Both the position numbers and the translations under genes were made by a program. DNA of 64,000 nucleotides. Source: Arthrobacter sp. KBS0703 (GTDB lineage: Bacteria; Actinomycetota; Actinomycetes; Actinomycetales; Micrococcaceae). The stretch is from positions 496,001 through 560,000 of the forward strand of contig NZ_MVDG02000001.1 of the NCBI RefSeq assembly GCF_002008315.2. The letters are read 5' to 3'. Positions 11,180 through 38,796 of the stretch are shown one piece after another; the stretch's first letter is position 1; each line of letters begins with the position of its first letter. The notes beneath the pieces are model-generated. The model was given only the letters and a program-made list of their open reading frames with translations, had not been told where the DNA came from and ran no database searches.

Positions 11180-11188
11180 CGTTCGTAG

Positions 11189-12170: not shown

Positions 12171-12208
12171 CTGTCTCTTATACACATCTAGATGTGTATA
12201 AGAGACAG
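12171..12208. other. Nextera/Tn5 mosaic-end pair (artefact) in vanY
   Basis: CTGTCTCTTATACACATCT is followed directly by its reverse complement, giving a 38-bp perfect palindrome of two 19-bp mosaic ends. It is an adapter junction, not genomic sequence. Confidence 0.95.
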
Positions 12209-12383
12209 CCAGGGGCTGGCGGGGTCGGTCAGCGAGTATTGATTGGGCAGGCTGGAGGCGGCCGACGGCGGCGCTGGCGCAGACGTTGACGGGGAGGCTG
12301 CCGGGGATGCGGACGACGGCGGTGCTGACGCGGGCGCAGAGGAGGACGCCGGCGCCGAGGCCGAGCCTGACGCGGCGCGCGCG

Positions 12384-12420
12384 TGTCTCTTATACACATC
12401 TAGATGTGTATAAGAGACAG
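12384..12420. other. Nextera/Tn5 mosaic-end pair (artefact) in vanY linker
   Basis: This is the same head-to-head mosaic-end pair, lacking the first C (37 bp). It interrupts the Ser/Ala/Pro linker of the carboxypeptidase. Confidence 0.95.
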
Positions 12421-12590
12421 GGCCTGGGCCGTTCCCGCTGCGGCGGAGGATGCCGGGCCCTGGCCCTCCGGAGTGCACGCAGCCAGCGCGGACAGCCCGG
12501 CGCCGGCGACCAGCAGCTTGGCGATTGACCGGCGGCTGGGCGGTTGCGGATCCCGGTCCATGGTGGGGGAGCAGTCGTAGCACACGTGTG

Positions 12591-13556
12591 CTAAACCTTC
12601 CTCAGCAGCATCCGGCGGATGGAATGATCGGCTTCCTTGGTGAGGACCAGCTGGGCCCGTCCCCTCGTGGGCAGCACGTTCTCTTCCAGGTTCGGTTCGT
12701 TGATGCGCTTCCAGATGTCGCGGGCCGTGACTTCGGCCTCGTCGTCGGAGAGCGTCGCGTAGCGGTGGAAATACGACTCCGGCTGCGCGAAGGCGGTGGA
12801 GCGGAGCTTCCGGAAGCGGTCCACATACCACTCCTCGATGTACGACGTCTTGGCATCCACGTAGATGGAGAAGTCGAAGAAGTCGCTCAGCGCCAGCCCC
12901 TGGCGGCCGTCATGCCGGGGGCGCGCGGGGGCCAGGACATTCAGCCCCTCGACGATGAGGACGTCCGGGCGGCGGACCACCACTTCCTTGCCGGGCACGA
13001 TGTCATATGTGACGTGCGAGTACCAGGGGGCGCGGACTTCCTCGGCGCCGCCCTTGATTTCGCTCACAAAGCGCAGCAGCGCCCGCCGGTCATAGGACTC
13101 CGGGAACCCTTTGCGTTCAAGCAGCTGGCGGCGCTTGAGCTCAGCGAGCGGGTACAGGAAACCGTCAGTGGTGATCAGTTCAACGTTCGGGGTGCCGGGC
13201 CAGCGCCGAAGCATCTCGCGGAGCACGCGGGCAATGGTGGACTTGCCCACGGCAACGGACCCGGCCACACCGATTACGAAGGGCGTGCGCTGGGTCTGTT
13301 CGCCCAGGAAGGTTGTGGTGGCGGCGTGCAGCTGGCCTGCGGCTTCCACATAGAGGTGCAACAGCCGGGACAGGGGCAGGTAGACCTCGCGGACCTCTTT
13401 CATGTCCAGGGGGTCACCGAGCCCACGAAGGCGCAGCACATCCTCTTCATTAAGGGGCTGTTCCATCTGGGCTGCGAGCCGGGACCAGGTCTGCCGGTCC
13501 AGCTCCACGAACGGCGAGACACCCTCCCCGTTCGCTTCATTGCGTTGCGAAGTCAC
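12591..13556 (-). CDS. coaA: Type I pantothenate kinase
   Basis: This 321-aa enzyme phosphorylates pantothenate, the first and usually limiting step of coenzyme A synthesis. It carries the P-loop [12 protein letters not shown] at about residues 97-107, ITTDGF, and the family signature VEGLNVL, with the C-terminal lid region RIWKRIN-like. The length is normal for bacterial CoaA. I chose the GTG at 13556, giving [10 protein letters not shown]; an ATG 30 bp upstream adds an Arg-rich stretch. acpS, whose product uses CoA, lies 3.4 kb downstream. Confidence 0.93.
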
Positions 13557-13627
13557 CCTAGAGATTCTGCCCCTCGCGGCGCGCATAGCGAAATGAAGGC
13601 ACTAGCCGGCGTCCCCGTGGCGGCCAG

Positions 13628-14072
13628 ATGAAGTACCCTCTCGCGCCCGGCACCGTCGTCGCCGGCGATCTGAACGTCGCCAAGACCCCGGCCGGCGTGT
13701 GGACCGACGGCGCCGGCGCTACCATCAACATCGCAACATGCAAGGTGGTTCCCGGCGACAAGCTCACCTACACGCAGGTCCTGGACGTGACGCTCACGTG
13801 GGGACAGGATGGCTGCCGACATCGTGGCCACCGGCACCGGCGCAGCCAACGGGTTCACCCCGGCCAACGTCGTCGTCACCGATCCGGTGCTGACCCTCGG
13901 CAGCACCAGCACCGTGGCTACCAACCCGCTGACGACGTCCAAGACGGTCACAGCCACCATCACGTTCGAATTCCTCTCCACCACCACGGGCCGCGCCGAC
14001 GTCACCGCGACATACAACTTCGGCAACGTCGCCTTCACCCTGCAGCAGGTAACCCAGTCCGGCCTGGCCTAG
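13628..14072 (+). pseudogene. SipW-type (alternate signal peptide) exported protein, 5'-truncated and frameshifted
   Basis: The reading frame from 13628 encodes APGTVVAGDLNV and GDKLTYTQVLDVTLT. It then loses frame at about 13799, and the frame from 13809 continues as MAADIVATGTGAANG to the stop at 14072. Removing one base in ACGTGGGG restores LTGDRMAAD, typical of proteins with an alternate-type signal peptide (TasA/SipW-like secretion). No signal peptide is encoded upstream in any frame, so roughly 40 N-terminal residues are missing. The role is unknown; such proteins are surface or fibre components. Given the adapter-ridden assembly around it, both defects may be errors. Confidence 0.6.
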
Positions 14073-14145
14073 TCTGATACCGGCGCACGGCGGCCCTGGA
14101 GGCCGCACGTCGCCGTTACCGGATCCGGGGCCAGGGGTAGGAATC

Positions 14146-14761
14146 ATGGGCATCCCCGCGCAGTCTGCGGGCCGCGGCGCTTATCGCCGCGGCGGTGCTC
14201 CTGGGCCTCCTGAGCGCGCAGGGCAGCTACGCACTGTGGAACGTCGGCACCTCCGCTGCACCCGGCACAGTCTCTGCCGCATCGTTCACCGTCAACCTCA
14301 CGGGCAGTCCCTCCGGCCAGGTCTGGCCCATGACACTGGCCGGAGGGCAGGCGGCCAGCCTGGCCCTCATCACCCAGGCCGCCGCACTCACCCCGGGAAC
14401 CGCGGTTTATGCCGGCGCCCTGGTGGGGAATGCCTCGGACGCGGGCGGAGCGTTCAGCATCGACGTCACAGCCGGGGCCCCGGCCGTCACCAGCGCGGGG
14501 AACGGCTCGCTTTCGCCGTATCTGACCGTCGACGCCAAGACGGCAACCTCAACGGATGCCTGCGCCACCGCCACAGGTTATGCCCCGCTCACCGCCGCGG
14601 GCCTGACCTCGGCAGCAGTTCCCAAAGGCGGCAGCACTGTCCTCTGCTTCGAAGTCAAACTTTCTTCCGCCGCTCCAGCCACGGTGAAAGGACAATCCGT
14701 GAGCATCACGATCCCGCTCACCGCGCGCCAGCTCTGCGGGGTGCCCGGCGGCTGCGCTTGA
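14146..14761 (+). pseudogene. Second SipW-type exported protein, start region frameshifted
   Basis: The main frame (from about 14159) encodes a hydrophobic leader RSLRAAALIAAAVLLG, then SYALWN, the hallmark after alternate-type signal peptides. About 180 residues of Thr/Ala/Ser-rich beta-like sequence follow. That frame has no good start codon before the leader. The ATG at 14146 is one base out of phase, and deleting one C in the CCCC run at about 14153-14157 gives MGIPRSLRAAALI, a convincing leader. It therefore looks like one gene with a single-base insertion. It is paired with the related gene at 13628, but no SipW signal peptidase gene is present in the window. The function is unknown. 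Confidence 0.6.
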
Positions 14762-15028
14762 TAGCCTTCCCCTCGTGGGGAATCCGGATCACAAGCGCAA
14801 GCAGAGGAGGCAGAGGAAGCCGGCCAGGAGCATGCCCGGCTCGGCCGCCACACGCACGCCGCTTCATGAGGGCGAAAGCGCCAGTTTCCCTTCCGAATGG
14901 ACGGGCGCCACGGCTGCAAATAGCCCCTCGTTGACCATTCGATGGGCCCGTCTCAGGGCCGGGGCAGGTGGCGTAACCCTCGGGATTGGCGTCGCCTCCG
15001 CGCTCCAAAGCCGGTTAGGCTTATACCC

Positions 15029-16921
15029 ATGTGTGGAATCGTGGGTTATGTAGGGCGTACGTCGGGCCGGGCTGATGCCGGGCACACTGCGCTGGATGTT
15101 GTTCTTGAAGGTCTGCGCCGCCTGGAGTACCGGGGCTATGACTCGGCGGGCATCGCGGTCGTCGCGGACGGGGAGATTTCCTCGCGGAAGAAGTCCGGGA
15201 AGCTGAGCAATCTGCTCGCTGAACTGGACGCGCGGCCGCTGCCGGAGTCGCTGACCGGGATCGGTCACACCCGCTGGGCCACGCACGGCGGCCCGACGGA
15301 TCAGAACGCGCACCCGCACCTGTCTGACGGCGGGAAGCTGGCGCTGATCCACAACGGCATCATTGAAAACTTCGCCGAGCTCAAGCTTCAGCTCGTGGCC
15401 AAGGGCGTGGAGTTCGCCTCCGAGACCGATACCGAGGTCGCCGCGGCGCTGCTGGGCGACATCTTCCGCAACAAGCTCGGCGGCGACGTGTCCGGCGGCG
15501 GCCTGACCCGGGCGATGGAGCTGGCCTGCCAGCGGCTCGAGGGCGCGTTCACGCTGCTCGCGGTGCACGCCGACCAGCCCGACGTCGTGGTGGCCGCGCG
15601 CCGGAACTCGCCCCTGGTGGTGGGCCTGGGCGAGGGCGAGAACTTTTTGGGCTCGGATGTGTCCGGGTTCATCGATTACACCCGCCGTGCGGTGGAGCTG
15701 GGCCAGGACCAGATCGTGACCATCACCGCTGATTCGGTGACGATCACCGATTTCTTCGGCGCCCCCGCGGAGGGCAAGGAATACCACGTGAACTGGGATC
15801 CGGAGTCCGCCGAGAAGGGCGGTTTCCCGTCCTTCATGGAGAAGGAAATCCATGACCAGCCCGACGCCGTGGGCCAGACCCTGCTGGGACGGTCGGACAT
15901 TCACGGGAAGCTGACCCTGGATGAGCTGCGGATCGATCCGGCGCTGCTCAAGAGCGTGGACAAGATCATCGTCCTGGCGTGCGGCACGTCCGCGTATGCC
16001 GGGCAGGTCGCGAAGTACGCGATCGAGCACTGGTGCCGGATCCCCACCGAGGTGGAGCTGTCCCACGAGTTCCGCTACCGCGACCCGATCGTGGACGAGA
16101 ACACCCTGATCGTGTCGATCTCCCAGTCCGGGGAGACCATGGACACGCTGATGGCTGTCCGGTACGCGAAGGAACAGGGCGCCAAGACGGTGTCCATCTG
16201 CAACACCAACGGCTCCACGATCCCGCGCGAGTCCGACGCCGTGCTGTACACGCACGCCGGCCCGGAGATCGCGGTGGCGTCCACGAAGGCGTTCCTGGCC
16301 CAGATCACGGCCGCGTACCTGCTGGGCCTGTACCTGGCGCAGCTGCGCGGGAACAAGTTCCAGGGCGAGATCAAGGACATCCTCGCGGACCTGGCCAAGA
16401 TCCCGGCCAAGATCCAGCGGATCCTGGACAACGAGGGCCAGATCAAGGAGCTCGGCCGGGCCATGGCGGACGCGAAGTCCGTGCTGTTCCTGGGCCGGCA
16501 CGTCGGGTTCCCGGTGGCCATGGAAGGTGCGCTGAAGCTCAAGGAGCTGGCGTACATCCATGCCGAGGGCTTCGCCGCCGGCGAGCTCAAGCACGGCCCG
16601 ATCGCCCTGATCGAGGAAGGCCAGCCGGTTTTCGTGGTGGTTCCGTCCCCGCGCGGCCGCGACTCGCTGCACGCCAAGGTGGTCTCCAACATCCAGGAAG
16701 TGCGGGCCCGCGGCGCGAAGACCATCGTGATCGCCGAGGAAGGCGACGAGGCCGTGAAGGCCTACGCCGAGCACGTCTTCTATATCCCGGAGACCCCCAC
16801 CCTCCTGGCGCCCCTGCTGGCCACCGTGCCGCTGCAGATCTTCGCCCTCTCACTCGCCACGGCCAAGGGATACGACGTGGACCAGCCACGCAACCTGGCC
16901 AAGAGCGTCACCGTAGAGTAA
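15029..16921 (+). CDS. glmS: Glutamine-fructose-6-phosphate aminotransferase (isomerizing)
   Basis: This 630-aa enzyme makes glucosamine-6-phosphate, the entry point to UDP-GlcNAc. The N-terminal glutaminase domain begins MCGIVGYVG with the nucleophilic Cys2 exposed after Met removal. It continues with [12 protein letters not shown] and HTRWATHG. Two SIS domains follow ([20 protein letters not shown]), ending NLAKSVTVE. There is no Shine-Dalgarno; TAGGCT ends 7 nt before the ATG, suggesting leaderless expression. acpS follows after 4 bp. The preceding 14762-15028 shows no supported gene. Confidence 0.97.
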
Positions 16922-16925
16922 GCAC

Positions 16926-17273
16926 ATGATTGTTGGCATAGGCGTAGACGTTGTGGACATTGAACGCTTCGGCAGGCAGCTGGAGCGCACCCCCGGGCTC
17001 CGCGACCGGCTGTTCGTTCCGGCCGAGCGCGAACTCAATACCCGCTCCCTGGCTGCGCGGTTCGCCGCCAAGGAAGCCGTGGCGAAGGTCCTGGGCGCTC
17101 CCGCCGGCATGAACTGGCAGGACTGCTGGATCGGACTGGACCAGAACGGCCCCACCATCCAGGTCAAGGGCACCGTGCTGGCAGTGGCTGAGGCCAAGGG
17201 CGTCAAACGCTGGCACCTGTCCATGAGCCACGACGGCGGCATTGCCACCGCCACCGTCCTGGCCGAGGGCTGA
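16926..17273 (+). CDS. acpS: Holo-[acyl-carrier-protein] synthase
   Basis: This 115-aa enzyme transfers 4'-phosphopantetheine from CoA to acyl carrier protein. The N-terminal [12 protein letters not shown] carries the Mg-binding Asp. [13 protein letters not shown] carries the second metal ligand Glu and Lys. [11 protein letters not shown] is the C-terminal motif. The length is typical of AcpS-type enzymes. It lies in a tight run glmS-acpS-nnr, with gaps of 4 and 20 bp, a common actinobacterial arrangement. Confidence 0.94.
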
Positions 17274-17293
17274 TACCGAACGGACTGCACTGA

Positions 17294-18820
17294 ATGATCA
17301 GCGCCTATACCGGAACCCAGATACGCGAGGCTGAAAAGCCTTTACTGGATTCAGGTATGGGCGCTGTTCTCATGCAGCGGGCGGCCCACGGCCTCGCCAA
17401 CGCCGTCATCGGGGAGCTGCGCTCCCGCGGCCAGCGGCTCTACGGCGCCAGCGTGGCGGTCCTTGCCGGCAAAGGCAACAACGGCGGGGACGGCCTTTTC
17501 GCGGCCGCTCAGCTCGCCGGACGGGGCATGCGTACGACGGCGGTCCTCGCCTCGGGCAGCGCCCATCCCGACGCACTGGCGGCCTTTGAGCGCGCCGGGG
17601 GCCGCGTGTGCAACCTGACCGACGCGAATGCCGGTGAGCTGGCAGCGGCGGCCGGGAGGGCCGACGTCGTTATTGATGCGTTGCTCGGAACCGGCGCGCA
17701 GGGCGGGCTCCGCGGTGCCGCCGCAGAGCTCGTTGCCCTGCTGGCCCGCGGTAACCGCGGCCTTGTGGTGGCCTGCGATGTTCCGAGCGGCGTGAACTCC
17801 GATACCGGCGAGGCCGCGGACCCGGTGCTCCCAGCCGATCTCACCGTCACCTTCGGCGCCGCCAAAGCAGGCCTGCTGACCGACCCGGGCGCCGACTTCG
17901 CCGGACGGGTCCACACTGTCCCGATCGGGATCGAGGACGGGCTTCCGTGGCCGGCACTGCGGCGGCTGGAAGCTTCGGATCTCGCCGCCCTCCTCCCCAA
18001 ACCCGGGCGCCGCTCGCACAAGTACTCCCGCGGTGTCCTCGGCATCGTGGCGGGGTCCCCGGCGTATCCCGGCGCCGCCGTGCTCGCCTGCCGCGGCGCA
18101 CTGGCCGCCGGTGTGGGAATGGTTCGCTACCTTGGCCCGCCTGACGTTGCCGACCTCATCCGGCAGAGCTGTCCCGAGGTGGTGTGCAGCTCCGGAACGG
18201 TGGCCGGGACGCACGTGCAGGCGTGGCTCGTGGGCTCCGGCATGGACGGCTCGGACGACGACCAGATGCAGCGTGTCCGCGATGCGGTGGATTCAGGCCT
18301 GCCCACCGTGGCGGACGCCGGCGCGCTGCCCGTGCTCCCGGATGTGCTGGCCCCGCAGGTGGTCCTGACCCCGCACGCCGGTGAGCTCGCAACACTGCTG
18401 ACGCGCCTCGGAGCCGGCCTGGACCGCGCCGCGGTGGAGGCGTCCACCCTCGCGGCGGCCCGGCAGGCAGCGGGCCTCACCGAGGCCACCGTGCTGCTCA
18501 AGGGCGCCACCACACTGGTGGCGTCCCCCTACCAGGACTTCTACAGCCAGGCCGACGGCACCCCCTGGCTGGCCACGGCCGGCAGCGGCGACGTGCTGGC
18601 CGGCGTCAAGATGTGTATAAGAGACAGCTGCTCGCCCAGGTGGGGTCCGACGTCGGGCGTTTCGGTGCGGCGGGCATCGATCCGGACGAGCGGTGGGCGG
18701 CCATTGCCGCCATGGCGGCAAGCCTTCATGCCCGCGCCGGAGCTGCCGCGTCCGGCGGCGCGCCGCTGACCGCGGGGCGGATTGCCGACGCCATACCCGG
18801 AATCTGGGATAAAGTCAGCA
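17294..18820 (+). pseudogene. nnr: Bifunctional NAD(P)HX epimerase/dehydratase, C-terminus interrupted by adapters
   Basis: The N-terminal YjeF epimerase domain (residues about 1-215; GKGNNGGDGLFAA) repairs the R-epimer of hydrated NAD(P)H. The C-terminal ribokinase-like dehydratase domain (about 230-500; LTPHAGELATLL, GSGDVLAG) removes the water using ATP or ADP. After GSGDVLAG a 19-bp mosaic end (18609-18627) replaces a few codons. The frame then resumes with LLAQVGSDVG and runs to GIWDKVS at 18820, where a second adapter pair hides the true stop. The enzyme is probably intact in the organism; about four residues and the last codons are missing here. Confidence 0.85.
18609..18627 (+). other. 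Nextera/Tn5 mosaic end (artefact) in nnr
   Basis: A single AGATGTGTATAAGAGACAG replaces native sequence just after the GSGDVLAG codons. No left-hand partner is retained. Confidence 0.95.
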
Positions 18821-18858
18821 CTGTCTCTTATACACATCTAGATGTGTATAAGAGACAG
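18821..18858. other. Nextera/Tn5 mosaic-end pair (artefact) at nnr/glgX junction
   Basis: A complete 38-bp head-to-head mosaic-end pair joins the end of nnr to the region upstream of glgX. Because it lies between two different genes, their adjacency is not proven by this sequence. Confidence 0.95.
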
Positions 18859-18953
18859 GTCACACCCACCCGCTACGGTAAGACCAAGTTCCCGGCGTGA
18901 CGCGCGACATACCTGCCGGACAAAAAGTGTTGGACAACGTAATAGGAGCACGA

Positions 18954-21389
18954 ATGGAAATCTGGCCCGGACAGGCGTACCCCCTTGGCGCCACCTTCGA
19001 CGGAACCGGAACCAACTTCGCTTTGTTCAGCGAACGAGCAGAAAAAATTGAGCTGTGCCTCTTCGAGGAGGACGGCACCGAGACGCGGGTCCCGGTAGGG
19101 GAAGTGGACGGGTACGTGTGGCACTGTTACCTGCCGCAGGTCCAGCCCGGCCAGAAATATGGCTACCGCGTGCACGGCCCGTACGACCCCGACTCCGGAA
19201 ACCGCTTCAACCCGAACAAGCTCCTCCTGGACCCGTACGCCAAGGCAGTGCACGGCCAGATCGACTGGGATCCCGCCCTGTTCTCCTACAACATGGGCGA
19301 CCCCGACTCCCGCAATGACAAGGACTCCGCGCCCCACATGATGATGGGCGTGGTCATCAACCCGTTCTTCGACTGGGACGGCGACCACCTCCCGCGTATC
19401 CCGTACCACCAGTCCGTGATCTATGAGGCCCACGTCAAGGGCCTGACGCAGCTCCACCCCGAGATCCCCGAGGAACAGCGCGGCACCTACGCCGGTGTGG
19501 CGCATCCGTCGGTCATCTCCCACCTGCAGAAGCTCGGCATCACCGCCATCGAGCTCATGCCCGTGCACCAGTTCGTCAACGACGGCATCCTGGAGGACAA
19601 GGGCCTGAACAACTACTGGGGCTACAACACCATCGGGTTCTTCGCCCCGCACAACAGCTACAGCTCCACCGGGGACACCGGCCAGCAGGTCCAGGACTTC
19701 AAGGCCATGGTCCGCTCGCTCCACCGCGCCGGCATCGAGGTCATCCTCGACGTGGTCTACAACCACACCGCAGAGGGCAACCACCTGGGGCCCACACTGT
19801 CCTTCAAGGGCATCGACAACGCCGCCTATTACCGCCTGATGGACGGCGATGAGAAGCACTACATGGACTACACCGGCACCGGCAACTCGCTGAACGTGCG
19901 CCAGCCGCACTCCCTGCAGCTGCTCATGGACTCGCTGCGCTACTGGGTCACCGAGATGCACGTGGACGGGTTCCGCTTCGACCTCGCCTCCACGCTGGCC
20001 CGCGAGTTCTACGACGTCGACAAGCTGTCCACCTTCTTCGAACTCATCCAGCAGGACCCCGTAGTGTCCCAGGTCAAGCTGATCGCCGAGCCGTGGGACG
20101 TCGGCCCCGGCGGCTACCAGGTGGGCAACTTCCCGCCGCAGTGGACGGAGTGGAACGGAAAATACCGCGACACCGTCCGGGACTTCTGGCGCGGCGAGCC
20201 CGCCACGCTGGGCGAGTTCGCCTCGCGTATCACCGGTTCGGCAGACCTGTACGAGCACTCCGGCCGCCGCCCGGTGGCCTCCATCAACTTCGTCACCGCC
20301 CACGACGGCTTCACGCTCGCGGACCTGGTCTCCTACAACGAGAAGCACAACGACGCCAACGGCGAAGGCAACAACGACGGCGAGTCACACAACCGCTCCT
20401 GGAACTGCGGCGCCGAAGGGCCCACGGACGACCCCAAGGTGCTGGGACTGCGCGCCCGGCAGCAGCGGAACTTCATAGCCTCGCTCCTGCTGTCGCAGGG
20501 CGTGCCCATGCTGCTGCACGGCGACGAGATGGGGCGCACCCAGCGCGGAAACAACAACGGCTATTGCCAGGATTCCGAGCTGACCTGGATCAACTGGGAC
20601 AACGTGGACCAGCCCCTGATCGAGTTCACCGCCGCCGTCAACTCGCTGCGGGCCAAGCACCCCACGTTCCGGCGCAGCCGCTTCTTCGACGGCCGGCCCG
20701 TCCGGCGTGGTGAGGGCGAGCGTCTGCCGGACATCGAGTGGCTGGACCCGGACGGCAACACCATGCAGCCCGAGGACTGGGACAGCGGCTTCGGCCGGTC
20801 CGTGGGGGTCTTCCTCAACGGTGACGGCATCCAGGGCAAGGACAACCGCGGGCGCCGCATCACGGATGTGAACTTCGTGCTGTACTTCAACGCGCACGAC
20901 GGCGACGTCGTGTTCAAGCTCCCGTCGGATGAATACGCCCCTGCCTGGGACGTCATCATCGACACCGCCGGCGCGGGTGCCGATTCCGAACCCGTGCAGG
21001 CGGGCGGAAAACTCACCGTCGCGGCGAAATCGCTCGTGGTGCTCCGTGCCCACAGCGCCCCAGAGGAGGAGCCGGATCACTCGGTGGCGGCCTCCCTCGC
21101 AGCTTTGACGCAGACGGCGACAACCGAAACCGCGGCGCTCACGGCCCCCACCTTTCCCGAGCCGAAAAACACCAAGAAGTCCGCGCTGAAGCCGGAAGAG
21201 AAGGGTGCGGAGAAGGCCGAAGAGGCGCCGGCGAATGTCGAGGAGGCGCCGGCCAGTGCCGAGGAGGCACCGGCGAATGTCGAGGAGGCGCCGGCGAATC
21301 CCGCGGCGAAGCCCGCGCCCGAAAAGAAGCCAGCGTCCAAGCCTGCGGGCAGGCGGCGGTCAGGCAAGCAGGGCGGGACGGGCTCATGA
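18954..21389 (+). CDS. glgX: Glycogen debranching enzyme GlgX/TreX
   Basis: This 811-aa GH13 isoamylase-type enzyme cleaves alpha-1,6 branches to yield linear maltodextrins for TreY. An N-terminal CBM48 domain (about 10-100) precedes the catalytic barrel, with [25 protein letters not shown] (nucleophile Asp), LIAEPWD (acid/base Glu) and FVTAHDGFT. After about residue 700 it carries a Lys/Glu/Ala/Pro-rich tail containing four 7-residue repeats (EEAPANV type) and a basic end; ordinary GlgX lacks this. The ATG at 18954 follows AGGAG. It overlaps treY by 4 bp. The sequence upstream (18859-18953) comes right after an adapter and shows no clear gene. Confidence 0.93.
21219..21302 (+). repeat. Four tandem 21-bp repeats in the glgX tail
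   Basis: Four direct copies of a 21-bp unit encode [21 protein letters not shown] and EEAPANP. The copies differ by one to a few bases. They are in frame, so copy-number change would lengthen or shorten the tail without a frameshift. Confidence 0.85.
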
Positions 21390-25509: not shown

Positions 25510-25530
25510 GCGAATGCGCGACTGAGCGTG

Positions 25531-25576: not shown

Positions 25577-25607
25577 CCGCTGCACCCGCGCTGGCAGGAT
25601 GGAACGT

Positions 25608-26657: not shown

Positions 26658-26676
26658 GCCGGGCCGCATCGTAATG

Positions 26677-26721
26677 AACTGCGCCGGAGCCCGCGGGAAC
26701 AAAGCCGGCTCCGGCGCAGTT
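26677..26721. terminator. Terminator after aldo/keto reductase
   Basis: A perfect 15-bp stem (AACTGCGCCGGAGCC with its complement, 26677-26691/26707-26721) follows the gene by 20 bp. The ino1 promoter probably lies directly after it. Confidence 0.75.
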
Positions 26722-26825
26722 GGTTACACTGTTAGGGCGCCGCGTGGCGCTGTGTCCGTCAGCCGCCGTCGTACAAAAGGGTACTGACGCGCAGGGCACC
26801 TGAAGTTTGTTCTCAAAGGAGTTCC

Positions 26826-27911: not shown

Positions 27912-27921
27912 GCCCCACCCC

Positions 27922-27984
27922 GGATGCTCTATCACTTGCAGTCCTCCAAGCCCCGGCTTGGCCGCTCCAAGTGATAGGGCATCC
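27922..27984. repeat. Long inverted repeat between ino1 and the nuclease gene
   Basis: Outer arms of 17 bp (27922-27938 with 27968-27984, one mismatch) enclose an inner CAAGCC/GGCTTG hairpin. It can act as the shared terminator of two convergent genes. Its CTATCACTTG/CAAGTGATAG arms resemble those of the hairpin at 28968-29018 on the other side of the nuclease gene. Confidence 0.75.
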
Positions 27985-27989
27985 TGCGT

Positions 27990-28916: not shown

Positions 28917-28946
28917 TCTGGTCCGAACGCACGTTCCCCGCCGAAG

Positions 28947-28955
28947 TTATCCACA
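28947..28955 (+). promoter_or_regulatory. DnaA-box-like TTATCCACA
   Basis: A single perfect TTATCCACA lies 31 bp upstream of the nuclease gene start. It matches the consensus DnaA box, but one box alone does not make an origin. Confidence 0.35.
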
Positions 28956-28967
28956 GCCCCCGGTTGA

Positions 28968-29018
28968 GCTCTCACTTGCGGCGGCTCTGGAGGCGGAATG
29001 ACGACCCAGAGTGATAGC
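28968..29018. repeat. Imperfect hairpin downstream of fhs
   Basis: GCTCTCACT (28968-28976) pairs with AGTGATAGC (29010-29018) with one mismatch, and an inner CTCTGG/CCAGAG pairing is possible. It lies 11 bp past the fhs stop, so it can serve as terminator. It shares the TCACTTGC and AGTGATAG motifs with the repeat at 27922-27984. Confidence 0.55.
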
Positions 29019-29028
29019 GCAACGGGGG

Positions 29029-30714: not shown

Positions 30715-30763
30715 CGTCCTTCACTGTCGGGGCGGGAATCCTGTGGGGTTCTCCGGTCAGCGC

Positions 30764-32041
30764 CTAGCCGGTGAGCCGCGGCGCGTAGTCGGCCGGCAGC
30801 TTCTGGCTGCCGGAAAATTCGTCGACGGCGGCCTGGTAGCTCTCCATCGTGATGGCCGCCGTGCGCTGCCATCCGGAATTCTCGGCGTGGACCGATGCCG
30901 CCCGGCCCATGTCCTCCCGCGTGACGGGGTCGTCGTAGAGGGCCTCCAGTGCGTCGGCCCAGTCCGCCGCACGGTGTCCGTCGACGAGCAGTCCAGTGCG
31001 GCCCTCGCTGATGGCGCGGGAAAGGCCGCCCACGCGTGTCGCCACCACGGGGGTGCCGCACGCCTGGGCTTCCAGCGCCACGAGTCCGAAGGACTCGCTG
31101 TAGGACGGCATCACGACGACGTCGGCCGACCGGTACCAGCCCGCCAGCGCCGGTGCGCCGACCGGCGGATGGTGCGTGACGACGTCGTCCATTCCTGCGG
31201 CGCTGACCAGCGACTTGAGGTTGAAGTCCTTGGCGCCGCTGAGGGCACCCAGGATAGTCAGCTTCAGGTCGATCTCCGGGCGGCGCTCGCGCAGCAGCGC
31301 GGCGGCCTTCACCAGGACCTGCGGGCCCTTGAGCCGCTGGATGCGGCCGGCGAACAGAAGATGGAACGTGCCCGGTGCGATGCCTCGCTCGGCACGTGAC
31401 CTGTTGCGGAACGCGGGCGTGAAGACGGCCAGGTCAACGCCCGGGGGAGCGACGTCGATGTGGTCGAAGTCCGCGTCGTAGTGCGACACGAGCTCGGCGG
31501 CCTCGGCGCTCGTGTTGGCGATGAGGCGCGCGGCGCCGTCGACGATCCGGTGCTCACCGTCCTCGCGGCGGCGCGGCTCCGGACTTTCGCCCGACTGGAG
31601 CAGGAGGTTCTTGACCTTGGCCATGGTGTGCATGGTGTGCACCAGCGGAACGCCCCAGATTTCGGACAGCTCCAGCCCGGCCAGGCCGGACACCCAGTAG
31701 TGCGAATGGATGAGGTCGTAGCGGCCGTGCGGCTGGCGCTCGCGGATCCGTTCGATCTCGGCCACCATGCTGTGCAGCAGTTCCGGCAGTTCCTCTTTGG
31801 GCAGTTTCCGGGGCGGCCCCGCCATCACGTTGTGGACGCAGACACCGGGATCCGGATGCTCGACGGCGGGCTGGCCGGCGGCGGTGGACCGGGTGAAGAT
31901 CTCCACCTCCACGCCGTGCTCCGCAAGGGCCGAGGCCAGGCCCCGGATGTAGACGTTCATGCCGCCGGCATCACCGGAACCGGGCTGTTCCATCGGGGAT
32001 GTGTGCAGCGACAGGAAGGCCACGCGCTTGATCAGGGTCAT
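30764..32041 (-). CDS. mshA: D-inositol-3-phosphate glycosyltransferase (mycothiol biosynthesis)
   Basis: This 425-aa GT4-family enzyme transfers GlcNAc from UDP-GlcNAc to inositol phosphate, the first committed step of mycothiol synthesis. The N-terminal SLHTSPMEQPGSGDAGGMNVY is the MshA signature. The C-terminal half has FAGRIQRLKGP and ESFGLVALEAQACG with the EX7E nucleotide-sugar motif. Its donors and acceptors come from GlmS/GlmM and Ino1, all encoded in this window. The upstream 32042-32192 ends at an adapter, so its full promoter may be lost. Confidence 0.95.
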   Translation of the reverse strand: MTLIKRVAFLSLHTSPMEQPGSGDAGGMNVYIRGLASALAEHGVEVEIFTRSTAAGQPAVEHPDPGVCVHNVMAGPPRKLPKEELPELLHSMVAEIERIRERQPHGRYDLIHSHYWVSGLAGLELSEIWGVPLVHTMHTMAKVKNLLLQSGESPEPRRREDGEHRIVDGAARLIANTSAEAAELVSHYDADFDHIDVAPPGVDLAVFTPAFRNRSRAERGIAPGTFHLLFAGRIQRLKGPQVLVKAAALLRERRPEIDLKLTILGALSGAKDFNLKSLVSAAGMDDVVTHHPPVGAPALAGWYRSADVVVMPSYSESFGLVALEAQACGTPVVATRVGGLSRAISEGRTGLLVDGHRAADWADALEALYDDPVTREDMGRAASVHAENSGWQRTAAITMESYQAAVDEFSGSQKLPADYAPRLTG

Positions 32042-32192
32042 GGCTCTCCTCTCTGCTCGCGGGACGCTCCGGAACGCAGGCCTGAAAATGCCCAGCCGGG
32101 AACTGCATCCGGTAAAACACTACTCCTGACGGACCCGGGCGTCGGCGGCCCGTGCGGTGCTGCCATCCCGCCGGCCGTGGACGGCCACGATA

Positions 32193-32211
32193 CTGTCTCT
32201 TATACACATCT
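32193..32211 (+). other. Nextera/Tn5 mosaic end (artefact) upstream of mshA
   Basis: A single CTGTCTCTTATACACATCT is followed by AGA and then by unrelated glycosyltransferase coding sequence. Only the first bases of a second mosaic end are retained. Confidence 0.95.
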
Positions 32212-32606
32212 AGAGGCCGGCGCCCCCTGACCGCCCTGCCGCCGCTCCCGGCCAACGCGCGCGCCGCCGAGTTCCTGCCGGACGCCGAACTCCTTCCGAA
32301 GGTGTCTCTTATACACATCTAGATGTGTATAAGAGACAGATGGAGAACGGCGTGCCCATCGTTGTCGCGGGCGATACCGAGGACAAGCCCGAAGGAGCGG
32401 CCAGGGTGGCCTGGTCCGGCGCAGGAATAAACCTCAAGACAGGACGGCCGGCGCCGTCGGCCATCCGCGACGCAGTTCGACAGGTCCTCGGCGACCCCGG
32501 ATACCAGGCCGGCAGCCGCCGGATCGGCGCAGCAATCGCCGCTTCACCGGGCGCGGACGGGCTCATTGACGAGCTGGAGACGATCCTGGCCGCGAAGCCG
32601 TCCTGA
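32212..32606 (+). pseudogene. Glycosyltransferase (MGT/UGT type), C-terminal fragments only
   Basis: Two pieces encode the C-terminal part of a GT1 glycosyltransferase. Piece 32212-32302 gives RPLTALPPLPANARAAEFLP. Piece 32340-32606 gives HGVP-like NGVPIVVAGDTEDKPEGAARV, the donor-sugar-binding loop, and runs to a stop at 32606. An adapter pair (32303-32339) separates them, replacing about a dozen codons that should hold the GGYG-type motif. The N-terminal about 300 codons are absent upstream, where another adapter stands at 32193. The natural gene is probably complete. The substrate cannot be inferred. Confidence 0.7.
32303..32339. other. Nextera/Tn5 mosaic-end pair (artefact) in glycosyltransferase
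   Basis: A head-to-head mosaic-end pair lacking the first C (37 bp) sits between two collinear coding pieces. Confidence 0.95.
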
Positions 32607-32632
32607 CCAAAGGCCCGGTAGGCAAGGCGTGC

Positions 32633-33505
32633 TCAGGCGCCGAGGTGGCTCCGCACGGCTGCCTGTACGGCCTCGCGCATCGGCACGGCGGGCCGCCCGA
32701 TGAGCGAGCTGAGATCTCCGCTGGTCACCAGCAGCTCGCCGCGTGCGATGCCGAGGTCACTGTCCGCCAGGATGGCTGCGTAAAATTCCGGCAGCCCGGC
32801 TTCCACCAGTGCCTGCGTGTACTGCTCCGCCGGCAGATCCTGGTAGGCCACCGGCTGGCCCGAGGCCGCACTGACTTCCCCCGCGAGCTCGCTGAGGGTG
32901 AACGGCACGTCGCCGCCGAGCTCGTACACCTTTCCGGCCTGACCCTCCTTGAGAAGCACCGCTGCGGCGGCCTGGGCGTAGTCGGCCCGGGTGGCGGCAC
33001 TGACCCGTCCCTCACCGGCGCTGCCGAGCACGGCGCCGTACTGGAGCTGCACGGCAAGCTGGTCGGTGTAGTTCTCCAGGTACCAGCTGTTGCGCAGCAA
33101 AGTGAACGGCACGCCGGACTCCCGGAGTGCCTCCTCGGTGGCCTGATGCTCCGCTGCCAGCTGCATGGTGGTGCTGCCGGCGTTGGCGATGCTGGTGTAC
33201 GCGATCAGCCCGACGCCGGCCTCCTTGGCTGCGTTGATGGCGTTCCGGTGCTGTTCGATGCGCTGGCCGGCTTCGCTTCCGGAGACCAGCAGGACCTTCT
33301 CGGCGCCTTCGAAGGCCTGACGCAGGGAGCCGGGGTCGTTGTAGTCGACAGGGCGGACCTGGACGCCGCGTTCGGCGAGATCGGCGATCTTGGTGAGATC
33401 CCGGCCGGCGGCCACAATCTGTCCGGCGGGTACGTTGTAGGCCAGGAGCGCTTCGACAACGAGGCGGCCGAGGCGGCCCGTGGCGCCGGTGATAACGATA
33501 GTCAT
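32633..33505 (-). CDS. NmrA-family NAD(P)H:quinone oxidoreductase-like (QorB type)
   Basis: This 290-aa atypical short-chain dehydrogenase has an N-terminal Rossmann motif MTIVITGATGRLGRLV and the QorB-like pattern LRNSWYLENY in the middle. Relatives reduce quinones or sense NADPH. The start at 33505 follows AAGGGAAAACC. It is divergent from an HxlR regulator 102 bp away, an arrangement known from other actinobacteria (QorA/QorR-type), where the regulator represses the reductase until a reactive quinone oxidises it. The actual substrate is unproven. Confidence 0.82.
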   Translation of the reverse strand: MTIVITGATGRLGRLVVEALLAYNVPAGQIVAAGRDLTKIADLAERGVQVRPVDYNDPGSLRQAFEGAEKVLLVSGSEAGQRIEQHRNAINAAKEAGVGLIAYTSIANAGSTTMQLAAEHQATEEALRESGVPFTLLRNSWYLENYTDQLAVQLQYGAVLGSAGEGRVSAATRADYAQAAAAVLLKEGQAGKVYELGGDVPFTLSELAGEVSAASGQPVAYQDLPAEQYTQALVEAGLPEFYAAILADSDLGIARGELLVTSGDLSSLIGRPAVPMREAVQAAVRSHLGA

Positions 33506-33578
33506 GGTTTTCCCTTTCACCAGTGAGTGACTGTCACAGGTACCAACCACATGCCTGCACCGTTACTTCCCAAAAGAG

Positions 33579-33603
33579 AGTACGCACTTTCAGGTAAGGT
33601 ACT
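33579..33603. promoter_or_regulatory. Possible HxlR operator in the qorB/hxlR intergenic region
   Basis: AGTAC-N15-GTACT forms a short dyad just before the hxlR start and overlaps its TAAGGT hexamer. HxlR-type repressors often bind GTAC-containing dyads. The match is short, so this is a suggestion only. Confidence 0.35.
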
Positions 33604-33606
33604 GGT

Positions 33607-34005
33607 ATGAAGGTAAGTACCCAGCCCATTGCGCCTGTTTTCCCCTTCGCGGACGGCATTTTCCCGGCGGGATGCCCCAGCAGGACAGTGCTCGACCACG
33701 TCACCAGCAAGTGGGGCGTCCTGATCCTCGTCGCGCTGTCCCAAGGCCCGCAGCGCTGGAGCGAGCTGCGCCGGCGCGCCGAGGGCATCAGCGAGAAGAT
33801 GCTCGCCCAAACCCTCAAGACGCTCGAAGCCGACGGATTTGTCCGCCGCGACGCGCAGCCGATCATCCCTCCGCGGGTCGATTACAGCCTCACCGACAGC
33901 GGCCGGGACCTTGCGGCAGTCATGCTGCCGCTGGTCGCCTGGATAGCCGAGCACGCAGAGGACATCATGGCGCAGTCCTCGCGTACAGCAGCACAAGCCG
34001 GTTAA
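33607..34005 (+). CDS. HxlR-family transcriptional regulator
   Basis: This 132-aa winged-helix protein contains CPSRTVLDHVTSKWGVLILVAL, RRAEGISEKMLAQTLKTLE and a beta-wing with PPRVDYSLTDSGR, typical of the DUF24/HxlR group. A lone cysteine at residue 23 is where redox-sensing members such as QorR carry their reactive Cys. It probably controls the divergent quinone reductase and itself. TAAGGT ends 6 nt before the ATG, suggesting a leaderless message. An adapter follows 21 bp after its stop. Confidence 0.88.
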   Translation: MKVSTQPIAPVFPFADGIFPAGCPSRTVLDHVTSKWGVLILVALSQGPQRWSELRRRAEGISEKMLAQTLKTLEADGFVRRDAQPIIPPRVDYSLTDSGRDLAAVMLPLVAWIAEHAEDIMAQSSRTAAQAG

Positions 34006-34026
34006 CTGCCGCGGGCGGCGCCTGTC

Positions 34027-34045
34027 AGATGTGTATAAGAGACAG
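34027..34045 (+). other. Nextera/Tn5 mosaic end (artefact) after hxlR
   Basis: AGATGTGTATAAGAGACAG is preceded by CTGTC, the start of an opposing mosaic end. The join between hxlR and the GH4 gene is therefore unverified. Confidence 0.95.
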
Positions 34046-34086
34046 CCGCGCCTGCGCCTGTTCGGCGGTTCCTGGCCAGCCGGCGC

Positions 34087-35538
34087 CTATTCGGCCGGCC
34101 GCTTCCACAGCCCGGCCAATCCCGGGAACGCTGCCTCGTACCCGGCGAGGAGTGCAGCGGCCAGGCTTTCCGAACCGATCAGCGGGTGTTCGGCGAAGGC
34201 CTGCAGCGCTGCTTCGCGCTCGCCGTGTGCCGCGGCCCGGACCGTGAGCAGCTCCACGCGTTTCACGCGCTGCATGAGGTTCAGCTGCGGCCCGGCAGGC
34301 TGGTCCTGCGCCAGCGGCACCGCGCCGTCGGCGGTCACCGTGCAGGGAACCTCGACGACGGCGCCCGCCGGCAGCCCGGGGATCGCCGGCTCCGCGGGGC
34401 CTGGCCCGGTCACCGCAGAGTTCGGCGTGTTGAGGATCAGTTCGGTGCCGCCCGCCGAAGCCCCGTCACCAGCGCCCCCGGCCCCACCCGCGCCTCCACC
34501 GGCCAGCGCCCGCATCAGGGCCAGGGCCACCTGTTCGTAGCCGCCGCCCGCGAGGTCCTCCGCATCGCGTGACTCCCCGGCGGCCCGGGCTTCGGCCAGA
34601 TAACCCTCTTCGCGTGACCTGCGGGCGGCATCCCAGAGGCTGAACGCCGCGTCCCCGGCCGCAGCCAGCCGCGGATACAGCTCCGCCTGCTGCCCGTGGA
34701 TGGACTCGCCGCGCGTCATGCCCTGGGCGCGCATGGCGGCGGCCGCCCGGGACGTCTCGTAGTAGTAGAAGAGGTACTCGTTCGGCAGGACTCCCAGCTC
34801 CTGGAGGAAGGGCTGCGGAAACAGGCGGCCCTCCTCGAAGCCGGCGAGCGCGCCGGCGTCCGCCAGCAGGTCCGGGAGGACATCGCGGCCGCCGGACTCG
34901 AGCCGGTACAGCCAGCCGAGGTGGTTCAGGCCGTAGTAGCCCACGCCGTCGAGCTTTCCGGCCGGCAGCGGAACGCCGGCGGCGCGCGCGGCACGGTGGA
35001 CGAGCGCGCTCGCGGAATCGCAGATTCCGATGACCTTGCGGCCCAGCACGGGCACCAGGGCTTCGGTGACCATGCCGGCCGGATTGGTGAAGTTGACCAG
35101 CCAGGCGCCGGGGCAGTGCCTGCGCATCTCCCGGGCGAGCTCCAGCATGGCGGGAATGGACCGCAGCGCGTAGGAAATGCCGCCTGCCCCGGTGGTTTCC
35201 TGGCCCAGGAGCCCCAGGTCCTGGGCGACGCGTTCGTCGGCAATCCTGCCCGCCGTTCCGCCCGGCCTGATGGCCGCGAACACCGTGTCCGTTCCCAGCA
35301 GGGCCTCGCGGAGCGACGTGGTGGCAACGATTCTGGGGGGAAGCCCGACGGCGGAACTTCCGTTCGGTGCCGCCGCCGAGGCCAGGGCCTGCAGCACGGC
35401 GGTGATGGCAGCCAGGCGGCCGGGATCGACGTCGTAGAGCACCAGTTCGCGGACCAGGCCGGCGTAAGGCCCCGAGCACAGCGCCCGGTACACGAGGGGA
35501 ACCCGGAAGCCGCCGCCGCCGGCGATCATGAGCCGCAT
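34087..35538 (-). CDS. GH4 family 6-phospho-beta-glucosidase
   Basis: This 483-aa enzyme belongs to glycoside hydrolase family 4, which cleaves phosphorylated disaccharides by an NAD- and metal-dependent redox mechanism. The N-terminal dinucleotide site is MIAGGGGFRVP. The metal ligands are probably C173 (GICDS) and H206 (GLNHLGW). NFTNPAGMVTEA is the family pattern. A Gly/Ala-rich stretch at about residues 353-372 is an unusual low-complexity insertion. I chose ATG 35538; upstream ATGs add an Arg-rich leader. It is divergent from a PfkB-type kinase, but no PTS transporter is nearby to supply a 6-phosphate substrate. Confidence 0.87.
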   Translation of the reverse strand: MRLMIAGGGGFRVPLVYRALCSGPYAGLVRELVLYDVDPGRLAAITAVLQALASAAAPNGSSAVGLPPRIVATTSLREALLGTDTVFAAIRPGGTAGRIADERVAQDLGLLGQETTGAGGISYALRSIPAMLELAREMRRHCPGAWLVNFTNPAGMVTEALVPVLGRKVIGICDSASALVHRAARAAGVPLPAGKLDGVGYYGLNHLGWLYRLESGGRDVLPDLLADAGALAGFEEGRLFPQPFLQELGVLPNEYLFYYYETSRAAAAMRAQGMTRGESIHGQQAELYPRLAAAGDAAFSLWDAARRSREEGYLAEARAAGESRDAEDLAGGGYEQVALALMRALAGGGAGGAGGAGDGASAGGTELILNTPNSAVTGPGPAEPAIPGLPAGAVVEVPCTVTADGAVPLAQDQPAGPQLNLMQRVKRVELLTVRAAAHGEREAALQAFAEHPLIGSESLAAALLAGYEAAFPGLAGLWKRPAE

Positions 35539-35668
35539 GGCAAGGAGTCTATGCCCACGCATCCCACGCGCACGCACCCATGCACAAGCGCGCCGGTCGC
35601 CGCCGGACGGGCCGCACCCCCAGAACTCGGGGTTTCAACCACAAGGCCCACAGCGTAGTGTGCCGAAC

Positions 35669-36760
35669 ATGGATGCGATTTCCGCACGCCGCTTCGATCC
35701 GCTCTCTGCCGTCCGCACGCCGTCGGCCGGATCCTTTGACCTGCTGCTGGCCGGGACAGTGTTTCAGGACATCATCTTCACGGGGCTCCCGCAGGCGCCC
35801 GAACCCGGAACTGAAATCTGGAGCGAAGGGATGGGAAGCTGCCCCGGCGGCGTGGCCAACCAGGCCATAGCCGCTGCCCGGCTCGGTCTCCGGACCTGCC
35901 TGGCGGCCGCCTTCGGCGATGACGGTTACGGGGACTACAACTGGAAGATCCTCGCCGGCCAGGAGCACGTGGACCTGTCCCTGTCCCAGCGCGTTCCGGG
36001 GTGGCATTCGCCGGTGACGGTGTCGCTCAGCGTGAACCACGACCGCTCCATGGTGACCCACGGGCATCCCGCGCCGGTGTCGTCGTCCGATCTGATCGGC
36101 CGTCCGCCGCCCGCGCTGGCCGCAGTGGCGGAGCTGGACCATGAGCTTGAACCGTGGGCACTTTCGGCCCACGGCGAGGGCGTGAAGCTGTTCGGCGACG
36201 TCGGCTGGGACCCCAGCGGCGAATGGTCGCAGGCGCGGCTGGAGAACCTGCAGTACTTCCATGCCTTCATGCCCAACCAGCGCGAGGCCATGGCCTTCAC
36301 CGGCAAGAACGATCCGTGGGCGGCGCTGTATTCGCTGGCGGACCGCGTGCCCGTAGCGGTGGTGACGCTGGGGCCGCAGGGGTCCATGGCCGTGGACTCC
36401 GAAACGGGCGAGGAGGAATGGGTGCCGTCGTTGCCGGTGGCGGCCTACGATCCCACCGGAGCCGGGGACTGCTTCGGGGCGGCGTTCGTGGTCGGCTGCC
36501 TGGCGGGGTGGCCGCTCGGAGACCGGCTGCGGTTCGCCAACCTCTGCGCCGCGCTGGCCGTGCAGGAAGTGGGCGGATCCCTCGCGGCGCCGGGCTGGGG
36601 CGACATCGCCGACTGGTGGAAACGCGCCAACGCCCGTCCTGAACGCCGCGGAAGCCAATGGCTGCGCCGCTACGCGTTCCTCGCCGACATCGTCCGGGAC
36701 GTGCCGCCGGAAGCCCAGCGCCGGGCGGCGGCCACCATCGCGCACCTTTCGGACGCCTGA
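35669..36760 (+). CDS. PfkB-family carbohydrate kinase
   Basis: This 363-aa ribokinase-like protein has the first PfkB signature region GSCPGGVANQAIAAARLG near residues 60-80 and the second, DPTGAGDCFGAAF, with the catalytic Asp, near 270-283. The substrate is unknown: sugars or nucleosides are possible. A C-terminal extension of about 45 residues beyond the usual fold contains WWKRAN and RRYAFLADIV. TAGTGT ends 7 nt before the ATG, suggesting leaderless expression. It may work with the divergent GH4 enzyme on a phosphorylated sugar; this is inference from position only. Confidence 0.85.
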   Translation: MDAISARRFDPLSAVRTPSAGSFDLLLAGTVFQDIIFTGLPQAPEPGTEIWSEGMGSCPGGVANQAIAAARLGLRTCLAAAFGDDGYGDYNWKILAGQEHVDLSLSQRVPGWHSPVTVSLSVNHDRSMVTHGHPAPVSSSDLIGRPPPALAAVAELDHELEPWALSAHGEGVKLFGDVGWDPSGEWSQARLENLQYFHAFMPNQREAMAFTGKNDPWAALYSLADRVPVAVVTLGPQGSMAVDSETGEEEWVPSLPVAAYDPTGAGDCFGAAFVVGCLAGWPLGDRLRFANLCAALAVQEVGGSLAAPGWGDIADWWKRANARPERRGSQWLRRYAFLADIVRDVPPEAQRRAAATIAHLSDA

Positions 36761-37061
36761 CCCCCTGCCTGGCCCGGGACGCGCCCCCGGACGGCCCCTT
36801 GGGCCGGGCGCCGGAACGGCCCGGGAACACCGCCGTTTCCCGTCAATTATCCGGCCCGCAACGCCAGCATTAGAATCAGTAGAGTGACTTATCCAGCAGC
36901 AACAGGAGACCTCCCGCCTGCATCAGGCGCCGTCCGGCCGCCGTCGTATGAACGGTCCGCCGTCATCGACCTCGAGGCCATCCGCCACAACGTCCGCCGC
37001 CTTGCCGCCGCCGCTTCGCCGGCACAGGTCATGGCGGTAGTGAAGGCGGACGCCTACGGTC

Positions 37062-37099
37062 CTGTCTCTTATACACATCTAGATGTGTATAAGAGACAG
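37062..37099. other. Nextera/Tn5 mosaic-end pair (artefact) in alr
   Basis: A complete 38-bp head-to-head pair stands directly after the DAYG codons of alanine racemase. Confidence 0.95.
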
Positions 37100-37135
37100 A
37101 GTCATGGTTTTGCCTTTCACCAGTGAGTGACTGTC
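37100..37135. repeat. Misplaced 36-bp copy of the qorB start region
   Basis: These 36 bases match 33500-33535 with a single mismatch (37112 versus 33512). They sit between two adapters inside alr, where they make no sense as code. They are best read as chimeric fill. Confidence 0.9.
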
Positions 37136-37160
37136 GCGCCGCCCTCGAGGCGGGAGCCGG

Positions 37161-37198
37161 CTGTCTCTTATACACATCTAGATGTGTATAAGAGACAG
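37161..37198. other. Nextera/Tn5 mosaic-end pair (artefact) in alr
   Basis: A second complete 38-bp pair lies 61 bp after the first and splits GAG from VAHISEAL. Confidence 0.95.
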
Positions 37199-38627
37199 GC
37201 GTGGCGCACATTTCCGAAGCGCTGGCGCTCCGAGCCGCCGGCATTGAGGCCCCTCTGCTCGCGTGGCTGCACACGGCGGAAAGCAACTTCGGCGCGGCGG
37301 TGGCTGCCGGCGTCGACATCGGGTGTTCCGGCTGGGAGCTGGAACGGATCGTGGCTGCCGCCCGCGAACAGGAGCGGCCGGCCCGCGTCCACCTGAAGGT
37401 GGACACCGGCCTTGGGCGGAACGGCGCCACGGTGGAAACCTGGGACCGCCTGGTGGGCGAGGCCATGGAGTACCAGGATGAGGGACTGCTGCGCGTGGTG
37501 GGCATCTTCTCGCACCTCGCCGTCGCCGACGAGCCCGAGCGCCCGGAAACTGACGATCAGCTCGCGGCGTTCCGCGAAGTCCTCGCCATCGCCGAGGACG
37601 CCGGCGTGGACCCGGAAGTCCGGCACCTGGCCAACACTCCGGCCACGCTGTCCCGGCCGGACACGCACTTCGACCTGGTCAGGGTGGGGCTCGGCATCTA
37701 CGGGCTCTCGCCGTTCGAGGGCCAGACCTCCGCTGAACTGGGCCTTCGCCCCGCCATGACCCTCCGCACGGTGGTGTCCCACTGCAAGGACGTGCCTGCC
37801 GGCCAGGGCGTCTCGTACGGCTTCAACTACCGCACCTCCGGCGCCAGCACGCTCGGACTCATCCCGCTGGGCTACGCCGACGGCGTCCCCCGGGTGGCCA
37901 CCGGCGGCCCCGTCCGCGTGGAAGGCGTGACCTACCCGGTGGTGGGCAGGATCGCCATGGACCAGATGGTGATCGACCTCGGCCCCCGGCACGTCTCCAC
38001 GGGCGGCCACAGCCTCCTGGGAGCCGAGGCACAGCTCTTCGGCGACGGCACCGACGGCGGCCCCACCGCTGACGACTGGGCCCGCGCCGCAGGCACCAAC
38101 AACTACGAAATCGTGACCCGCATCAGCCCGCGCGTGCCGCGGACGTACATGAACGAAACGCCGGTCAGCGAATCGCCGGTCAACGAATCGCCCGCGCCGT
38201 GAACCTTCCGGCGGCCGGCACGGCACCCCTGTGGGTCCAGACCCTGAAGGTCACGACGGCGGAGCAGACCCACGCGTTCGGCGCGGCGCTCGCGGAGGTG
38301 CTTCGCGCGGGGGACCTGCTGGTCCTCACCGGTGAACTGGGCGCGGGCAAGACGACGTTCACGCAGGGGCTCGGCGAGGGCCTGGGCGTGCGCGAGGGGA
38401 TCATCTCGCCCACGTTCGTGCTGGTGCGCATCCATCCGAACCTCCCCGACGGGCCCCGCCCGGGCGGCCCCGACTTGGTGCACGTTGACGCCTACCGGCT
38501 GGGATCGGCGTCGGAAATTGACGACATCGACCTGGAAAACACGCTGGACTCCGCGGTCACCGTGGTGGAGTGGGGACGCGACCGGGTGGAACACCTGAGC
38601 GAGAGCCGGCTCGAGGTGGAGCTGCAC

Positions 38628-38665
38628 CTGTCTCTTATACACATCTAGATGTGTATAAGAGACAG
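38628..38665. other. Nextera/Tn5 mosaic-end pair (artefact) in tsaE
   Basis: A complete 38-bp head-to-head mosaic-end pair follows the VELHL codons. Confidence 0.95.
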
Positions 38666-38693
38666 ATGCCCACGCATCCCACGCGCACGCACC
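38666..38693. repeat. Misplaced 28-bp copy of the GH4 upstream region
   Basis: These 28 bases are identical to 35551-35578, just upstream of the GH4 gene. They are attached to the right edge of an adapter, again pointing to chimeric fill. Confidence 0.9.
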
Positions 38694-38777
38694 AGCCCAC
38701 CCGGCCGACGGCGGCGCCGGACCGGGCGCGGCACCGGATGCGGAGACGGTCCTGGACTTCGACGCGGAGGACGACGA

Positions 38778-38796
38778 CTGTCTCTTATACACATCT
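38778..38796 (+). other. Nextera/Tn5 mosaic end (artefact) in tsaE
   Basis: A single CTGTCTCTTATACACATCT separates the acidic EDDD codons from TIIIRGFG; no opposing partner is retained. Confidence 0.95.

Follow-up and report, generated by a model that had tools for sequence, protein, structure and literature searches.

In Nextera mate-pair libraries a 19-bp adaptor is placed at each fragment end by Tn5, and circularisation of the fragment generates a 38-bp pair, according to the adapter description in the NextClip paper (PMC3928519), which also states that unclipped reads give worse scaffolds; mate-pair libraries are treated as well in part of PMC6298255. The present study concerns the 19-bp Tn5 mosaic end in a published genome, that of Arthrobacter sp. 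KBS0703. The window, which is the whole stretch of DNA that was analysed, comprises 64,000 nucleotides (bases 496001-560000 of a 4.42-Mb contig; the genome is 4.86 Mb in 37 contigs) and contains 18 mosaic-end copies grouped into 11 islands. These islands are almost certainly junction adapters left untrimmed from a Nextera mate-pair library with fragments of approximately 3-4 kb. The disruption of the surrounding genes is an error of assembly, an ordinary artefact with no biology in it.

The islands share with the adapter in that section of the NextClip paper the 19-bp adaptors, the 38-bp head-to-head pair and a fragment size in the kilobase range. The adapter is clipped from the reads there (PMC3928519), whereas here it survives at at least 251 places in the assembly. 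Untrimmed adapters in published microbial assemblies are also the subject of the part of PMC11536531 concerned with database contamination. That contamination is by the Illumina universal adapter at contig ends, whereas the adapter in this genome is a different one and sits in the interior of a long contig, out of reach of a screen of contig ends.

Islands in the window and in the genome

The mosaic end was scanned for with up to three mismatches allowed, and 16 of the 18 copies found in the window are exact, the other two having one mismatch. The 19-mer did not occur in 100 dinucleotide shuffles of the window. Five islands are exact 38-bp palindromes, at 12171..12208, 18821..18858, 37062..37099, 37161..37198 and 38628..38665, and two are 37-bp palindromes from which the outermost C is missing (12384..12420 and 32303..32339). 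The remaining four are single 19-mers, at 18609..18627 (- strand), 32193..32211 (+), 34027..34045 (-) and 38778..38796 (+). The two halves of all seven palindromes abut, with no cargo between them. No copy with three or fewer mismatches is present in 1-12170 or 38797-64000. An earlier note on this DNA had listed 11 islands at these positions, including seven head-to-head palindromes 37-38 bp long, with island-free outer parts, and the scan reproduced each of these counts.

That note understated the extent of the matter, which is genome-wide. With at most one mismatch there are 772 mosaic-end copies in the genome, and the exact 38-bp joint is present 251 times in the 4.86 Mb. At least 83 exact joints lie inside the first 1.6 Mb of the 4.42-Mb contig, where the 139 islands consist of 83 exact palindromes, 27 imperfect ones and 29 single 19-mers. 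Of the 27 imperfect palindromes, 20 are 37 bp long and lack the outermost base of one half.

The islands are abnormal for the group to which the genome belongs. The nearest named relatives of its TsaD protein are Arthrobacter and Pseudarthrobacter species, the best with 87-90% identity in a comparison that possibly excluded the genome itself. In a sample of the genus the exact 19-mer was found in six of 198 genomes, with 681 copies here and 1 to 14 in each of the other five. In a sample of the phylum the 38-mer was found in two of 396 genomes, this one and another with a single copy (an exact 38-bp joint at G397:C7:116809-116846). The exact 38-mer is also present in seven stretches (L162-L168) of public viral contigs from IMG/VR, in four of them no more than 10 bases from an end of the fetched stretch; two of the stretches belong to one 4.8-kb contig.

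Mate copies and cut sites at the joints

Tn5 transposase would have cut the DNA and added the 19-bp mosaic end to each end of a fragment, and circularisation would have brought the two ends head to head, leaving 38 bp between the right and left ends of the fragment. Reads crossing such a joint would have been used in assembly or gap filling with the adapter left in. At GC-rich and presumably low-coverage places, two flanks ending in adapter may have been bridged through it, and the bridging would lose the few native bases between two cut sites.

A joint of this kind is predicted to be preceded by the right fragment end and followed by the left one, the latter originating some kilobases upstream on the same strand. 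The 139 islands in 1.6 Mb provided 278 edges, and copies of the edge sequences were looked for within 20 kb on each side, with up to two mismatches and with the adapter masked. Copies of at least 20 bp were found at five edges, all five on the predicted side and strand, at distances of 3114, 3412, 3583, 3599 and 3673 bp. No inverted or wrong-way copy of at least 20 bp was found within 20 kb of the 278 edges. Among up to 6000 random control points, copies of this length numbered 28, only one of which was direct, upstream and 1.5-8 kb away; at 278 edges chance would accordingly produce roughly one copy in all, and well under one of the predicted kind. As the mate copies lie 3.1-3.7 kb away in the predicted direction, it follows that the adapter entered with untrimmed mate-pair reads.

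Two of the five copies are within the window. The joint at 37062..37099, in the alanine racemase gene, is followed at 37100..37135 (+) by a 36-bp copy of 33500..33535 (+), identical at 35 of 36 positions and on the same strand. The joint at 38628..38665 is followed at 38666..38695 (+) by a 28-30-bp copy of 35551..35580 (+), again on the same strand. Both pieces are misplaced mate-pair DNA, copied from 3.6 and 3.1 kb upstream, and the implied fragments are 33500-37061 (3562 bp) and 35551-38627 (3077 bp). The fragments implied by all five copies are 3077-3635 bp in length, and a weaker sixth copy, with a 19-bp match, gives 4204 bp. A foreign source for the low-GC piece at 37100 was considered and rejected, there being only weak matches to plasmids, none in E. 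coli genomes, and a source of its own 3.6 kb upstream.

The bases next to the adapter were compared at the 222 edges where the 19-mer half is complete. G occupies base 1 at 123 edges (55%, background 36%, p 1.6e-9) and C occupies base 9 at 116 (52%, background 37%, p 1.3e-6), and smaller biases at bases 2, 4-6 and 11 exceed the largest value seen at bases 26-60. The target preference of Tn5 resembles this G1/C9 pattern, and the edge bias fits Tn5 cut sites. The head-to-head 38-bp joint, the mate direction and the Tn5 cut-site pattern of the Nextera mate-pair adapter are thus all found in this genome.

The cut sites also bear on another kind of mate-pair library, for which DNA is sonicated and a ring adapter with this 38-bp sequence is ligated to it, with no tagmentation by Tn5. 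An identical 38-mer is printed as a ring adapter, for fragments of approximately 4 kb, in the portion of PMC7357533 dealing with such libraries, in which the DNA is sheared and not cut by Tn5. A Tn5-like bias at the edges is unexpected after shearing, and we consider such an origin extremely unlikely.

The earlier note had assigned the islands to a library adapter and not to real insertions, and this part of its reading stands. Its further proposal, that contig ends from a plain Nextera library had been joined through the self-complementary adapter, comes near the mark without being exact, since there are neither tails nor a shared overlap. That origin would require paired-end read-through in a Nextera or Nextera XT library, with contig ends carrying the 19-bp mosaic end scaffolded end to end. 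It is favoured by the presence of the same 19-mer in five of the other 197 genomes in the genus sample, in which all 19 reverse copies begin at most 190 bases from the start of a contig (position was counted for reverse copies; the five genomes have 15 forward copies). It is at contig starts that untrimmed adapter is usually seen. A plain Nextera library, however, would have an i5 or i7 tail behind the mosaic end, and neither was found there in the genome, where an exact pattern for i5 and one allowing up to three mismatches for i7 both gave no occurrence; the TruSeq 13-mer is likewise absent from the genome. The 19-bp ends (...ATCT and AGAT...) share no overlap, yet 251 joints are exactly 38 bp long. 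End-to-end scaffolding is further opposed by the lack of any N in the 800 kb examined, and the plain library by mate copies of at least 20 bp that lie solely in the predicted direction, at 3.1-3.7 kb. A plain Nextera library is therefore a very unlikely source, and the untrimmed mate-pair adapter is retained.

Genes hit and native bases lost

Islands lie in five genes, in agreement with the earlier count of at least five conserved ones: those for a VanY-type D,D-carboxypeptidase, an NAD(P)HX dehydratase/epimerase, alanine racemase and TsaE, and the C-terminal piece of a macrolide-type glycosyltransferase. The flanks of the window islands were placed in seven relatives, of which G002 is represented by a stretch reaching only to about window base 29 kb. 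Wider placement used G002 alone and 75 islands from 800 kb. Both flanks were found in the G002 stretch for 18 of the 75, and in all 18 they are collinear and on one strand; 57 islands had no two flanks there, and as 24 of the 75 fall within its span, six of those 24 were missed. At 16 of the 18 placed islands the relative has 8-47 bases that are absent here, although some of the gap values are unreliable because the flank alignments stop short of the joint. The adapter thus stands in the place of native bases. Collinear flanks with small native losses also fit a bridging of two flanks through the adapter common to both.

The earlier note had reported the deletion of native codons. This holds against relatives at 12171, 18609 and 18821, the alanine racemase pair is consistent with it, and the value at 12384 is unreliable. 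In the carboxypeptidase gene (- strand), G002 has 38 native bases at the place of the joint 12171..12208; the second joint of this gene, 12384..12420, is in its low-complexity N-terminal part, and there the flank alignment stops short of the joint. The single mosaic end at 18609..18627 lies in the NAD(P)HX epimerase/dehydratase open reading frame (ORF; 17294..18769, +), where eight native bases are gone in comparison with G001, G002 and G004 alike. The 19 bases that replace these eight cause the loss of the frame. At 18821..18858, 32 native bases are gone in comparison with G002. The two joints in the alanine racemase gene (37062..37099 and 37161..37198) have outer flanks that are 54 bp apart in all six relatives covering the gene and 137 bp apart in the window, the latter figure including 76 bp of adapter and the 36-bp mate copy. 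The TsaE frame is terminated with LSLIHI at the joint 38628..38665, and the single mosaic end 38778..38796 lies ahead of tsaB; the flanks of these two islands are 74-131 bp apart in six relatives against 169 bp in the window.

For the islands at 32193, 32303 and 34027, one or both flanks had no usable match in the relatives covering the place. The single mosaic end 32193..32211 is upstream of the remaining glycosyltransferase pieces, and the ORF 32325-32606 matches only positions 308-392 of the 393 in TIGR01426. This mosaic end may hide a loss exceeding those at the other islands; alternatively, the glycosyltransferase gene may be a natural remnant. In window 32212-32606 the glycosyltransferase is visible only as its C-terminal part. 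The flanks 32340-33139 and 33227-34026, in the NmrA-type/HxlR-type stretch, had no match in the relatives compared except for one of 49 bp in G001. The island 34027..34045 lies between an HxlR-type regulator ORF, which ends at 34005, and a GH4 ORF (34087-35577).

Real insertions in the cell, either scars of a mini-Tn5 or a mobile element based on mosaic ends, would also be expected inside genes, and the mosaic end is a transposon end. Such insertions would carry a 9-bp target duplication, the absence of which had been remarked on before, and none of the 139 islands has a perfect one. In the 11 window islands, 0-5 of the nine flanking bases agree; over all 139 the mean is 2.8 compared with 2.5 for the local control, and the best match, 7 of 9, occurs once. 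Native bases are absent at 16 of the 18 placed islands. The genome has no Tn5-type DNA-binding domain (PF14706), of which a control E. coli genome gives one, and this agrees with the earlier statement that no transposase is present. Insertion also does not account for 772 copies in one genome or for DNA from 3 kb away copied at the joints. Real Tn5 insertion is ruled out by the absent duplication, the lost native bases and the absent transposase domain, and cellular insertion of any kind has practically no chance of being the explanation.

Several observations do not follow from untrimmed junction adapters and weigh against them. No mate copy of at least 20 bp was found at 273 of the 278 edges; the bridges must therefore have been built from at least two reads, by a route that cannot be followed. 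Matches of at least 18 bp occur at 12 edges, eight in the predicted direction, three inverted and one the wrong way. These last four are all 18-19 bp long, as are two in the predicted direction at odd distances (540 and 19500 bp) outside the expected size; only matches of at least 20 bp were counted as evidence, and other short ones obtained without masking were mostly GC-rich or adapter. Single 19-mers make up 29 of the 139 islands and are not predicted by the simple model; single junction adapters are known in mate-pair libraries. Six or seven of the nine flanking bases agree at seven of the 139 islands, compared with 2% in the local control (two or three expected), a small excess which can be explained by the G1/C9 bias shared by the edges. 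Finally, two of the 18 placed islands gave negative gaps (-38 and -43), values that are unreliable as the flank alignments stop short of the joint.

The islands are found in GC-rich DNA. For the 75 islands the median GC content within 100 bp was 72.5%, compared with 66.0% at random places (p 2e-26, overstated because islands cluster), and 18 of the 74 spacings between islands are only 28-443 bp. We read these features as marks of gaps in GC-rich DNA of presumably low coverage, closed via the shared adapter by mate-pair reads that had not been trimmed. The low coverage, the bridging by gap filling or contig merging and the program responsible are what we infer from the assembly.

Gene losses or odd fusions called near the joints are without biological meaning, and the alr, tsaE, NAD(P)HX dehydratase and carboxypeptidase genes only look broken. 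The problem is not revealed by the completeness score, which is 99.99% for this genome. Whether the case can be generalised is an even question: adapter joints inside long contigs may form a class of contamination of their own, overlooked by screens of contig ends and able to disrupt genes at hundreds of sites per affected genome with near-100% completeness, and surviving mate copies may give the type of library and its insert size from the assembly alone. We make no claim that internal adapter joints are unreported. The case has some value as a warning and because facts about a library can be recovered from its assembly; affected genomes would be caught by scanning for the 38-mer.

Adapter translations in protein collections

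The 38-mer reads identically on both strands as LSLIHI*MCIRD, CLLYTSRCV*ET or VSYTHLDVYKRQ. The false peptides MYKRQ and MCIRDS pointed out earlier are indeed present in mechanical ORFs of the window, as is VSYTHLDVYKRQ, and MCIRDS is encountered at residue 440 of the NAD(P)HX epimerase/dehydratase ORF. A 95-residue chimeric ORF (18613-18900) was compared with 5.8 billion proteins, the 8000 candidates with the most shared words being scored, and 142 proteins passed E 1. Among the matches listed, VSYTHLDVYKRQ is present in 111 of 120, from many contigs; the nine top matches are without it and carry the name or domain of NAD(P)H-hydrate dehydratase. The adapter translation is now in protein collections, and short 'families' built on VSYTHLDVYKRQ would be false. 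Of the 111 proteins (P0010-P0120 among the matches listed), 110 are ENA entries on contigs of less than 2 kb and one is an nr entry. In four of five such sequences inspected, VSYTHLDVYKRQ is present more than once.

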